64,000 bases of DNA from Polynucleobacter necessarius (lineage in GTDB: Bacteria > Pseudomonadota > Gammaproteobacteria > Burkholderiales > Burkholderiaceae). The notes beneath the pieces are model-generated. The model did not search any database. It was not told the DNA's origin and saw nothing but the letters and a program-made list of their open reading frames with translations. This document shows, one piece after another, positions 3,620 to 41,370 of the stretch. Numbering within the stretch: position 1 is the first letter of the stretch; each line of letters opens with the position of its first letter. The stretch spans positions 1,165,915-1,229,914 of the forward strand of contig NZ_LT606948.1 in assembly GCF_900095185.1 (NCBI RefSeq), read 5' to 3'. A program made the translations under genes and the position numbers.

Positions 3620-4879
3620 TTAACTAGCCTTTGCTTGATCGGAAGCCTGTATTTGTGTGATGACTTTGTCTAGCACTTGTGAAACTGTGATTGCTTGCAT
3701 ACACACGTTATCCTGACACGGGGTCTTGCGATGATTAGCAGCACTAACGCAAGGAGAGCAGGCTAAGTTAGCGGTGATAGCAATTGAATTACCAACTGAG
3801 CCATAAAGAGCTGGAGTTTCAGGCCCAAATAGAACAACCGTACGTAATGGAGTTGCTGCAGAGAAGTGGCCTGGGCCAGAGTCATTGGTCACCATTACAT
3901 CTGACAGGGTATATAGAGGTGGTAACTCAGTAAAACTTACCTGTCCAGCAAAATTCAGTGCATTTTTTACATTAGCTACAGATCGCACTTTTTCTGCATA
4001 AGAAATTTCATTAGGAGATCCTGTAATTAAGATAAGGTCGCTTGAAAACTGTTGATGAAGCGCTTGAATGAGCTCGGAAAAGCGCTGTTGGGCCCAGCGA
4101 CGTTGCGGCAAGAGATCGCTGGCATTAGGGTTAATTAAAATCAAACGATTTTTTCCTAAGGTGTAATTAATTCCAGCATCATGAGCGAGTTTTTCAATGC
4201 GATGACGAACCTTTTCTAAGGAGTCTGGATTGAGGATGGCTTGCTCTAGGCGAACTTCTGAGTCTGGGATCTCAATTTTGCTGAAAGGAACCTCAATCTT
4301 CTGCGCAAAGGCAGCATGAATCAGCGAGAGGAAATTCTTGGTAATATGAATGTGTGGGTTGTAGTGCACTTTTCGGGTCAGCATAAATCCACGCCATAGC
4401 CCTTCTCCATGAAAAATGTGATAACCCACGCGTCGGCGTGCTCCGCACATACCTGTTAGTAGTGCTGTAAAACGGGAGAACAACTCTAAATCAATTACTG
4501 TATCAATACGGTGAGTGCGAGCTAACACTAAAAAACGCAAGGTATCTTTAACTAACCTACTTAAACTTGATGCATCAATTGTGAAAATATTCTCTGGCTT
4601 AACGGTATTGAGCAAAGTGAGACTGGCGCGATTGTTCTTAAAGATTAAGAAAAACAACTCTGCTCCACGTGCTTGAGCATTACGCATTGCTGGGTCTACC
4701 AAGATTGCACTACCCATTTCAGAGAGTTCAATGAAGAGCATTTTTTTTGGCGTCTCTGGGCCGCGACTGACCATATTTTTGATGCCATCTATCAAGGCGA
4801 CAAATGGGCTAACGACTGCACAAAGTGGAACACCAACCCAATGGTCAATTGCGCGCATAGTGTTGACGCTAATAGTCAT
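3620..4879 (-). CDS. glycosyltransferase family 9 (heptosyltransferase-like)
   Basis: 419 residues, longer than WaaC/WaaF because of about 45 extra N-terminal residues before MLFIELSEMGSAILVDPAM, which is the usual GT9 start. The C-terminal domain has the donor-site block VTNDSGPGHFSAA and VVLFGPETPALYG. A cysteine-rich stretch (LACSPCVSAANHRKTPC) near residue 375 is typical of GT9 members that are not classic heptosyltransferases. It lies 17 bases downstream of the flippase-like gene. Probably adds a sugar to LPS core or a related envelope glycan; acceptor unknown. Intact. Confidence 0.88.
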   Translation of the reverse strand: MTISVNTMRAIDHWVGVPLCAVVSPFVALIDGIKNMVSRGPETPKKMLFIELSEMGSAILVDPAMRNAQARGAELFFLIFKNNRASLTLLNTVKPENIFTIDASSLSRLVKDTLRFLVLARTHRIDTVIDLELFSRFTALLTGMCGARRRVGYHIFHGEGLWRGFMLTRKVHYNPHIHITKNFLSLIHAAFAQKIEVPFSKIEIPDSEVRLEQAILNPDSLEKVRHRIEKLAHDAGINYTLGKNRLILINPNASDLLPQRRWAQQRFSELIQALHQQFSSDLILITGSPNEISYAEKVRSVANVKNALNFAGQVSFTELPPLYTLSDVMVTNDSGPGHFSAATPLRTVVLFGPETPALYGSVGNSIAITANLACSPCVSAANHRKTPCQDNVCMQAITVSQVLDKVITQIQASDQAKAS

Positions 4880-33748: not shown

Positions 33749-34473
33749 TTATTGAGTTACAAAATTCTTTGCTTTTTCCAAAGCTTGTTTATAGTGATTT
33801 GCATGACGCTCTTCGACATTGACTAAGGCTGCAAAACGCTTTGCTAACACTGCTTGAAATTGCTCAGCATGCTCCTTTGATTCTGCAATCTGCTCATCAA
33901 TTTCTTGCATTGCAGCGCTATTGCCCTCTTCAACAGCAGTTTTACGAAACGAAGGGTACATTTCAGTGTATTCATAAGTCTCCCCTTCAATTGCAATCTC
34001 CAAAGCACGTGTTGGAGTCATTGTATTGGGGCAATGATGAATTCCGTCATGGTGAGGCATTTGCGCTATTAATGCGTTCAAACCCAGACTTACTCAGTGG
34101 TGTGAATCGTTTATGGATTCGCTTTTTCCTGATTGCAGTGTATGCAACGATGTATGTACGCGATCATTCAAGGCCCGAATTTCATAAGGCACCTGGTGTT
34201 TCGCCCACAGACTATGATCGCCAAGTTCTTAAAATTACCTCAGATATTTCTAAGCAAGTATTTCCATTTACTATTAGCTGGGTAGAGCAAATTTAAGTGG
34301 CCGAAAGCATGCAGTATTTCTTGATCAGCCGTAGCCTCAAATATTTTTGCAGTTTCCTCGTCGCCAGCAGCACGGGCTAATTTTGCAAAGTAGCGATACT
34401 TAATGTGAGCGATCAATTCACCAGCAAAGGCCGATTCTAAGTTTTGAATAGTTTTGATTGCTGGACGTGTCAT
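33749..34473 (-). pseudogene. rubrerythrin gene split by an antisense insert
   Basis: The 5' part from ATG 34473 reads TRPAIKTIQNLESAFAGELI, AHIKYRYFAKLARAAG and [22 protein letters not shown] (diiron Glu ligands and ExxH). The 3' part (34021 down to 33749) resumes [20 protein letters not shown] and [14 protein letters not shown], ending ALEKAKNFVTQ. Relatives read straight from '(A/E)NS' to 'MTP', so essentially nothing was lost. Instead about 250 bases of foreign coding sequence sit between, making stops in this frame. A diiron peroxidase is thereby disabled. Confidence 0.9.
34024..34271 (+). pseudogene. acsF: internal fragment of acsF (Mg-protoporphyrin IX monomethyl ester oxidative cyclase)
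   Basis: On the plus strand, inside the minus-strand rubrerythrin gene, an open frame reads [60 protein letters not shown] and [15 protein letters not shown] carries diiron ligands of AcsF. The long collinear match (over 80 residues, no gap or stop) makes the identity secure to my reading. AcsF closes the isocyclic ring of (bacterio)chlorophyll. No start, no stop of its own, no neighbours of a photosynthesis cluster: it is a fragment. Confidence 0.85.
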
Positions 34474-34578
34474 TTTGATGCCTTTCTTAATTGAATTCAG
34501 TTTGTTGAGTCTTTTCATCGATTTCTCAACTATGGATGTAGTTTGCGCCCAATTTAATTATCAGTCCAATAAATCATT

Positions 34579-35609: not shown

Positions 35610-36272
35610 AATGTCCGGAAAAGAAATTATGTTCACCCTAGTTAATCTTGGGTCTATCAAACTGTTCACACTCTTCATCACATCCAGAGCAGGGCGCTCC
35701 TGAAGCGCCTTCTGCCATTCCTGCGGCAAGTCAAACGTATGGTGCAGATTGGAAATTGCATGACTACGAGATACCGACAGCAATGAGTAAGAAAGATATT
35801 ACTCGCTTGCTTAAAGAGCAAGAGACAGCTGTACATAATGCCAAAATAGCAGGCTTTGATGGGATTGAAATTCATGCTGCAAATGGATATTTATTGGATT
35901 AGTTCTTGCAAGATAAAACCAATCAACGTACCGATGAGTATGGAGGTACTGCCGAACATCGTCTTCGCCTCTTGGGGGAAGTTATTAAGTCAGTTAGCAA
36001 AGTATTTGCGAGCGATAAGATTGGAGTACGCCTTTCTCCTTAGGCACATTCAATGACATTGGTGATAGTGATCTAGCTGCATTGTTTACTGCGGCGATAG
36101 ATAAATTGAATGCCTACAAATTAGCGTATATACATATGATCGAGAGCCCCGGACTACCAGTGCTGGGGGTGGCGATTAAGTGAATCTAGATGCGCCAATC
36201 ACATCGGAACTCTTTCGAGCTGCATTCCAACGGAAGTTCATTACCGCTGGTGGCTATGACCAAGCATCAGTT
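35610..36272 (+). pseudogene. NADH:flavin oxidoreductase / old yellow enzyme, pseudogene
   Basis: Start SGKEIMFTLVNLGSIKL, then a deletion and shift, HPEQGAPEAPSAIPA and YEIPTAMSKKDITRLLKE, then GFDGIEIHAANGYLLD (OYE active-site strand, HxAxGYL). A stop at 35900, NQRTDEYGGTAEHRLRLLGEV (RxDxYGG motif), IGVRLSP with a further stop, and FITAGGYDQA near 36262 follow. There it runs into the reversed end of a DUF4239 gene. Four or more lesions. The family reduces activated double bonds with FMN. Confidence 0.9.
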
Positions 36273-36829: not shown

Positions 36830-38085
36830 TTAAAAGGTTCCTGGATATAAGATATCTTTAGTCACGTTTTGAATATCGCGATGACCAGTAAATGCCATAG
36901 TGATATCCAACTCATTGTGAATAATTTCTAAACACTTAGTTACACCCGCTTCGCCCATTGCTCCCAAGCCATACAAGAATGGTCGTCCGATCATAGTGCC
37001 ACGCGTACCTTATCAGGGTATCTGGTGGTTTTATGGGAATGAACCCCAAGGTGATGCAAAAATCTTATTTCAAAATATGATTCGCGCTTTAGGTTTAGTC
37101 AAAAATGAATGGATGTGGAAGGGTGCCTCTAAGTCTTTATCTCAGATGGGCATTCCAGAATTACCAGTTGTAGCAGTTGCTTTTGGTGGCTCTGTCGCAC
37201 AAAAAATCACCGGAGAGAAGGATCCTTTGACAGAACTGCGCCAAACGGTCTTAGCTCTCATTGCTAATGCATCTGCACCAGAGTTCGCAGCTAAGCGTGC
37301 ATCACCTTCATCAAGGATTCCCTTGATGATGAGTTTTCCACCCCAAAGCTTTTTGATCCACTCAACATCTCCCCAATTGAGGCTTGGATCAAATTGCTCG
37401 GCAGTCTAGGATGAAAGCGAGGACATATTGTCCACTCCAGTTGCATGGCCAATAATATTACGGAAAGTTCTTCGAGGCGTCATTGCCATTCCCATGCACC
37501 AGCGTGGCTTAGTTGCCATATTGATCATATATGCAATAGTCAGTTTTGGAGGGGCTGAGAGACCATTCTTCAGGTCCTTACGGCGTTGTCCGAGAATTTG
37601 TAAATCTAAAGTGAGGACAAGGGCAGAGCACTTAGCAGCTTTAGCACGCTCAATTGGGCGTTCAATAAAGCCACGATCTTTCATGACATATAGCTGAAAC
37701 CAAAATGGTTTGGTAGTACGTTCAGCCACATCCTCAATTGAACAAATACTCATAGTGGAGCGGCAAAACGGTATGCCGAATTTTTCTGCAGCTTAAGCTG
37801 CCAAAATTTCACCATCAGCATGCTGCATACCAGTTAAGCCAGTGGGGGCGAGCGCAAAACTGGCATGGCAACTTCTTCGCCAACCATCGTCGTTTTTGTG
37901 GTGCGATTAGTCATATTAGCCGCAACACGCTGACGTAATTTAATCTTCTGAAAATCGGATTCATTGGCGCAGTATGCCGATTCAGTCCATGAGCCAGAAT
38001 CGGCATAGTCGTAGAACATCTTGGGGGTACGTTTTTGGTGGAGGACCCGCAAGTCTTCTATATTGGTGCTATTTGGATAAATCAA
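36830..38085 (-). pseudogene. lldD: L-lactate dehydrogenase (FMN, LldD-type), pseudogene with antisense insert
   Basis: From 38085: MIYPNSTNIEDLRVLHQKRT and MFYDYADSGSWTE, then in other frames GLTGMQHADGEILAA, STMSICSIEDVAERTTKPFW, FQLYVMKDRGFIERPIERAK, GDVEWIKKLWGGKLIIKGIL and DARLAANSGADAL. There homology stops at about 37264 and resumes at about 37000 with GTMIGRPFLYGLGAMGEAGV to the end (36830). The missing part holds the catalytic 'SNHGGRQ' region and is replaced by plus-strand coding sequence. Confidence 0.9.
37001..37263 (+). pseudogene. unrecognised coding fragment inserted antisense in lldD
   Basis: An open plus-strand frame reads YQGIWWFYGNEPQGDAKILF, QNMIRALGLVKNEWMWKGAS and LPVVAVAFGGSVAQKITGEK, then DPLTELRQTVLALIANAS. 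Composition and spacing look like a real conserved protein, but I do not recognise it. A DNA-metabolism protein of beta-proteobacteria is one loose possibility. Both ends abut lldD sequence read on the opposite strand. No start or stop of its own and no repeats or transposase. Confidence 0.6.
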
Positions 38086-40346: not shown

Positions 40347-41306
40347 TTAATTGAGAGGTTCTGCACTCTCCAGGTCAGCAGATTGTTTGGAGTCTGATGA
40401 CTTTTTGCTTGGAGCGTCATTGCGAACAAGTAGCCACATCGCGGAAATGACCAAAGCCATTCCGCTAATTTGTATCCAAGTAATAGGTTCGGCCAAAATG
40501 AAGTAACCCATAAAGATTGTTGATACCAGACTCAGAATTCCAGCTTGGGCTACAAGTGGTGATCCAATGTGGTTGATGGCAATCATAATCAGCAACATTG
40601 GAATGACAGTACATAAGCTCGCATTGCGTAAGCTATACCAATAAATTATTGGAAGCTGTTCAAAAATTGCGCTTAGATGATGAAAAGTGGATTGCAGTAA
40701 GCTTAAGACCGCAGAGGCTGAACTTGCATATACCACAAGGCGTACACTTCCAATTCGCTTGACCATTTCTCCTGCTTCAATCATATAAGCTGCATATGAG
40801 CAGGCGCTGCCAAAGACCAGAACCATCCCGAGCCAAGCACTGATTCCGGTAGAGCTAGCATCTTGAATAAAGACAATAAACACCCCAATGTATCCAACCA
40901 CGAGAGAGCACCACTGCAAGCGAGAAATAGACTTTTTTAAAACAAAATAGGAAATGACTAAAACAATTGTTGGGGTGAGATAAAGAACGATTCGTTCTAG
41001 GCCGACAGAGATATATTGCAGACCCAAGCAGTCGATATAACTTGATAAAAAGTAACCTAAAAATCCTAGAAAAAATAATTTAGTCCGATCGACCCATGTG
41101 ACTGGACTCATTGCTTTGCGTCGCGCCTTCCACCAAAATATTCCCCAAAATCAGGGAAGAGCCATGAGCATTCGCAAAGCCAATAGTGTTTCCGCATGTG
41201 CCCCATGTTCAAACGCGAGCTTTACCAGAATAGCTTTGCCCGAAAGAAGCATAGAGCCAACTCCAGCCATCAAGATGCCATAGAGGTAGCGTTGACGATG
41301 ACCCAC
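40347..41306 (-). pseudogene. EamA/DMT-family transporter with an in-frame stop
   Basis: From GTG 41306: HRQRYLYGILMAGVGSMLLS and AKLAFEHGAHAE-type residues, then TGA at 41151-41153 after MLMALP. The same frame then stays open for 254 codons (FWGIFWWKARRKAMSPVTWV, FSACSYAAYMIEAGEMVKRI-type helices, IGSPLVAQAGILSLVSTIFM) to 40347. The translation after the stop could begin at ATG 41111 but would lack the first two helices. Drug/metabolite transporter fold, substrate unknown. Confidence 0.8.
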
Positions 41307-41370
41307 TGAGTTAATTTACAAGGAAAAGATGAGGGTTTGTCCAGGCTGCGCTAGCCGAGTGCATCTCTAA

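Follow-up and report, generated by a model that had tools for sequence, protein, structure and literature searches.

An inverted fragment, probably of the resident holD gene, within a decayed lldD gene of Polynucleobacter necessarius

The stretch of Polynucleobacter necessarius DNA analysed here (the window; 64,000 nucleotides of contig NZ_LT606948.1) holds the lactate dehydrogenase gene lldD in two pieces on the minus strand. The 3' remnant occupies positions 36830-37010 and the 5' remnant positions 37265-38085, the latter with a frameshift near residue 74 and two in-frame stops, located around residues 95 and 224. Between them lies a plus-strand patch of ~254 bp (~37011-37264; 251-258 bp), which reads YQGIWWFYGNEPQGDAKILFQNMIRALGLVKNEWMWKGASKSLSQMG... 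and is inverted relative to lldD; its left edge is uncertain by ~7 bp and its right edge by 1 bp (a shared T). In comparisons across the genus, similarity to lldD ends at 37003-37013 on the left and restarts at 37265/37266 on the right. A 601-base query matches lldD of same-genus genomes at 75-87% from 36820 to ~37010 and over 37265-37420, and its middle part matches a gene other than lldD, some match to the query being found in 57 of 61 genomes. The lldD loci of all eight relatives compared carry 149-159 bp of lldD in place of the patch. An initial annotation, made from this sequence alone, had proposed that an unnamed fragment replaces about 55 residues of LldD, including its catalytic stretch. 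The replacement stands, with a count nearer 50-53 residues, and the residues lost include SNHGGRQLDG, as well as GGIRSG; we take these to be active-site and flavin-binding motifs of the LldD enzyme family. Given the frameshift and the two stops, lldD is not a working gene that lost its catalytic part alone. The surroundings of lldD are heavily eroded: by comparison with one relative's locus (L155), deletions of ~272 bp (window 35661-35665) and ~1.5 kb (36265) adjoin an oxidoreductase-like pseudogene, named by eye.

The fragment forms part of an ORF of ~175 residues found in the genus, and its translation is matched at E <= 0.01 in 52 of 61 genomes (its own included), with a top match of 2.8e-41 outside its own genome. 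Two of three full-length relatives scanned exceed the gathering score of PF03603, the DNA polymerase III psi subunit (25.3 and 25.6 bits, the third reaching 20.8; cut-off 22.2). The window fragment alone gives no match to this profile at E <= 1, and the NCBIfam psi models score the holD-like relatives far under their own cut-offs. The gene order in one relative (L006) is tsaB-rimI-holD, and holD adjoins rimI in E. coli as well. We name the source gene holD, an assignment that is well supported though short of certain. Two other assignments were considered. DPBB_PEX6, a Pfam match of the fragment alone (16.6 bits, below the cut-off of 22), was dropped once the full-length relatives matched PF03603, and UDG family 4 (UDG_fam4) was rejected because its scores of 14-21 bits (matches at 0.00025-0.027) fall far below its cut-off of 125. 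The 137-residue ORF at 36996-37409 was likewise rejected as a gene, being a chance fusion of holD with antisense lldD. The patch in lldD is without function.

The greater part of the patch recurs elsewhere in the same genome. Positions 37100-37265 (plus strand) are identical, at 166 of 166 bases, to C1:1475313-1475478 on the minus strand, a resident holD remnant that lies ~272 kb away, keeps its 3' end and is situated between rimI and an lplT-like gene. Among 185 other genomes of the genus, the best nucleotide match to the patch reaches 73%; any match at all occurs in 76 of 186 genomes (own included), and two genomes other than its own give two matches each, in one case both from a single gene region, in the other with an additional match of 30 bases located on another contig. 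Full identity over 166 bases, set against at most 73% elsewhere, indicates a source internal to the genome, and on these alignments that source is the genome's own holD. The remaining part of the patch (37011-37099, plus strand) has no other copy in the genome and is homologous to the 5' half of the relatives' holD. Compared with L006, the resident holD lacks ~239 bp, from the end of rimI to mid-holD. With full-length holD as protein query, the genome yields two places only, the patch and the remnant. Since the resident holD is itself broken, the genome is left without a full-length copy of the gene. Because these ~90 bp are gone from the source locus, the patch preserves, as a fossil, sequence that has been lost there; it dates from a time when holD still had its 5' half. 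The simplest order of events would be a copy into lldD first and the deletion at the source later. Beside the holD remnant, rimI (C1:1475479-1475700) shows an internal loss of ~350 bp, so that the genome has an intact copy of neither gene at this locus.

These results also settle what had been surmised about the fragment itself. The impression that its plus-strand frame belongs to a real protein is confirmed by the matches in 52 of 61 genomes and by the recurrence of 166 of 166 bases in the genome, and the same protein matches, the best at 2.8e-41, exclude chance open sequence. The question whether the patch came from within or from outside the genome is answered in favour of the former, the same-genome search returning the source, identical at 166 of 166 bases and, unexpectedly, itself broken.

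At least four further loci in the genome bear the same kind of scar. Two of them lie in the window, 3 kb and 4 kb from the lldD patch. The first is a piece of acsF of ~250 bp (34025-34276, plus strand; source C1:262214-262469), with one mismatch in a 250 bp core, inserted in inverted orientation within a rubrerythrin gene, of which an N-terminal remnant (34276-34518) and a C-terminal remnant (33752-34024) persist on the minus strand. The target lost 0-4 bp, and the rubrerythrin gene is present at this place in six of eight relatives' loci. The acsF source gene, a bacteriochlorophyll gene, is itself decaying in this genome, being interrupted near 2041 (L056 1298-2383). The second is a 44 bp piece of ygfZ (41302-41345, plus strand; 42 of 44 bases identical to C1:1429764-1429807) beside a transporter-like gene; it is absent from the relative G024, and a few bp were lost at the target. 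Beyond the window, a 67 bp piece of dnaJ lies in rsmG at 100% identity with no target loss, and a ~156 bp piece of ttcA lies in an acuI-like gene. The dnaJ and ttcA pairs were found blind, when 804 kb of the genome (48.6%) were compared with themselves, a sample that contains the three window pairs because their partners were included deliberately; the acsF and ygfZ pieces come from 60 kb of the window, run as three queries against the whole genome. A 74% match, short self-inverted matches and pairs of 30-53 bp at 91-92% were not counted as patches. For holD (in part), acsF, dnaJ, ttcA and ygfZ alike, a copy is found at a distant site with the source retained. Three of the four further pieces have a relative for comparison and are clean or near-clean insertions; lldD is the only target with a larger loss (149-159 bp) when compared with the rubrerythrin, rsmG and ygfZ-patch sites. 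A transposon or insertion sequence does not account for such pieces, which come from the interior of various ordinary genes, differ in length and are seen as two copies for each patch and source pair. In a plasmid collection, only remote relatives of lldD were matched.

A relative with a genome of free-living size, G024, served for comparison. No gene-fragment pairs were seen in the 800 kb of it that were sampled (42%). As a pair is visible only if both copies are sampled, the two blind finds against none are suggestive, not significant. G024 does contain some repeats of 46-65 bp at 94-100% identity, together with a single 100 bp repeat at 92%; those of 46-65 bp, found at 1353111/1368567 and in the interval 1881-1886 kb, are located outside or between listed ORFs and were not counted. 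One 20 kb query against the whole G024 genome returned only matches of up to 115 bp, at 69-96%. Several ~60 bp repeats between small ORFs at C1:1881000-1887000 of G024 possibly represent a gene-cassette array. ORFs of at least 150 residues cover 0.58 of the P. necessarius sample versus 0.84 in G024, the former value fitting a symbiont-like genome in decay.

The reading that we favour, at a probability of roughly 0.7, is that the patch is an ectopic, within-genome copy of holD, inserted in inverted orientation at a deletion of ~150 bp in lldD, by template switching or Ku-independent joining. The identity to the resident holD, the lldD deletion, the inversion and the later 5' loss at the source are supported directly; the enzymes and the intermediate of patch formation we infer. 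A break or a stalled fork in lldD would start the event. A DNA end would then, guided by little homology or none, take the strand of the distant holD as its template, ~254 nt would be copied, and a Ku-independent step would join the copied end to the opposite flank in lldD. This could proceed by two routes, either microhomology-mediated template switching or the capture of a free DNA fragment by alternative end joining. The later deletion of ~239 bp at the holD locus took with it the first ~90 bp of what had been copied. Since lldD was, or became, a pseudogene, the scar would have been tolerated. A profile search, whose controls match, detects no Ku domain in the genome. The junctions share 0-5 bp as judged by eye at few junctions (e.g., TATT at the right rubrerythrin junction), an extent of microhomology that chance could give; the ancestral targets are known from relatives at ~80% identity only. 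As the holD source has lost its left end, microhomology with it is readable at one junction of the lldD patch.

The most serious competitor, though an unlikely one, is an assembly artefact, in which a ~250-base read from the holD locus wrongly bridged or filled a gap in lldD, and an acsF read did likewise in rubrerythrin. The evidence comes from one assembly of the species, and this single-contig assembly contains Ns as well as two tandem duplications, of 248 and 246 bp, that are flanked by Ns and come close in length to the patches in lldD (~254 bp) and rubrerythrin (~250 bp), the longest of the set. These duplications, at C1:1103063-1104160 (L071:3063-3559 and 3666-4160), are 100% identical, each abuts Ns in one gene, which we take to be recJ-like, and they probably reflect contig ends that the public assembly left unmerged; because they abut Ns, they stay outside the patch count. 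However, all Ns in the sampled stretches were checked and none occurs at any patch, and ~90 bp of the lldD patch are found nowhere else in the genome. Gap filling would hardly be expected to yield the acsF and dnaJ insertions with their 0-4 bp of target loss, patches of 44, 67 and ~156 bp are not of read length, and the copies differ from their sources at 1 of 250 positions (acsF core) and 2 of 44 (ygfZ).

Far less probable is an RNA-mediated origin, in which breaks took up reverse transcripts of mRNA fragments. All five source pieces are coding sequence, as this would have it, but coding pieces are expected by chance in a gene-dense genome, and the reverse transcriptase profile RVT_1 (PF00078) finds nothing in this one, the same search giving matches in E. 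coli and in two others. Gene conversion or recombination driven by homology, whether of lldD with holD or of acsF with rubrerythrin, can be given still less credence: AcsF and rubrerythrin do both match PF02915, a ferritin-like Pfam domain, but the acsF piece is opposite in orientation to the rubrerythrin frame, holD and lldD show no similarity outside the patch, and junction identity amounts to just 0-5 bp. Horizontal import from another bacterium, with a merely familial resemblance to the resident holD, has no observation in its favour and is refuted by the 100% identity over 166 bp to the resident copy against 73% at best in 185 other genomes.

The kind of scar that the favoured within-genome copy of holD represents is known in principle from other systems. 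In the portions of the literature consulted, human templated insertions at induced breaks consist of distant chromosomal copies at the junctions, mostly accompanied by a target deletion, as here, and the authors of that work propose microhomology-mediated template switching; those insertions, however, arise at induced breaks and involve 53BP1 and CtIP, whereas the present scars are natural and bacterial. The model of microhomology-mediated break-induced replication (MMBIR), or fork stalling and template switching, likewise invokes, in the part of the source consulted, copying from templates that are non-contiguous and share little homology, once a fork has run into trouble, but it was derived from large human copy-number changes, whereas the pieces described here measure 44-256 bp and lie in a bacterium (PMC2621351). 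The RecA-independent alternative end joining of Deinococcus and E. coli, a bacterial and Ku-independent process like the one proposed here, acts at short repeats and yields deletions; the consulted text speaks of repeats of 4-11 bp and plain deletions with no mention of distant inserts, whereas here distant pieces are inserted (PMC8149714). Portiera endosymbionts offer a parallel in a rearranging symbiont genome with losses among polymerase III accessory functions (dnaQ there, holD here), their genome instability following the loss of replication and repair genes; the report describes rearrangements and repeats, and the terms microhomology and end joining are absent from its text, so that fragment patches are not described there in such terms (PMC7821994). 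Among open-licence papers, screened by title and the start of the abstract, no earlier description of such patches in bacteria was found.

A broader proposal, which we consider doubtful, is that a process still under way in this lineage sprinkles copies of ~40-260 bp from distant genes into decaying loci, through frequent template switching by a weakened replisome; the loss of holD may feed this process, and the patches would serve as dated fossils of genes that have already disappeared elsewhere. According to the consulted part of a study in Pseudomonas aeruginosa, depletion of HolD leads to SOS induction and to dependence on recombination (PMC8879598). The link between the patches and the loss of psi is speculative, and the lldD patch, at least, arose before holD had lost its 5' half. 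If the proposal were true, eroding symbiont genomes would shed DNA and at the same time patch their breaks with random pieces of their own.

The decay of symbiont genomes is usually accounted for by point mutation, deletion and the spread of transposons. Short templated patches from distant genes would add a fourth kind of scar to these. Such patches make pseudogenes resemble chimeric genes to annotators; they also show a repair route that remains to the genome and, as with the 5' half of holD, can preserve sequence that has been lost at its home locus.
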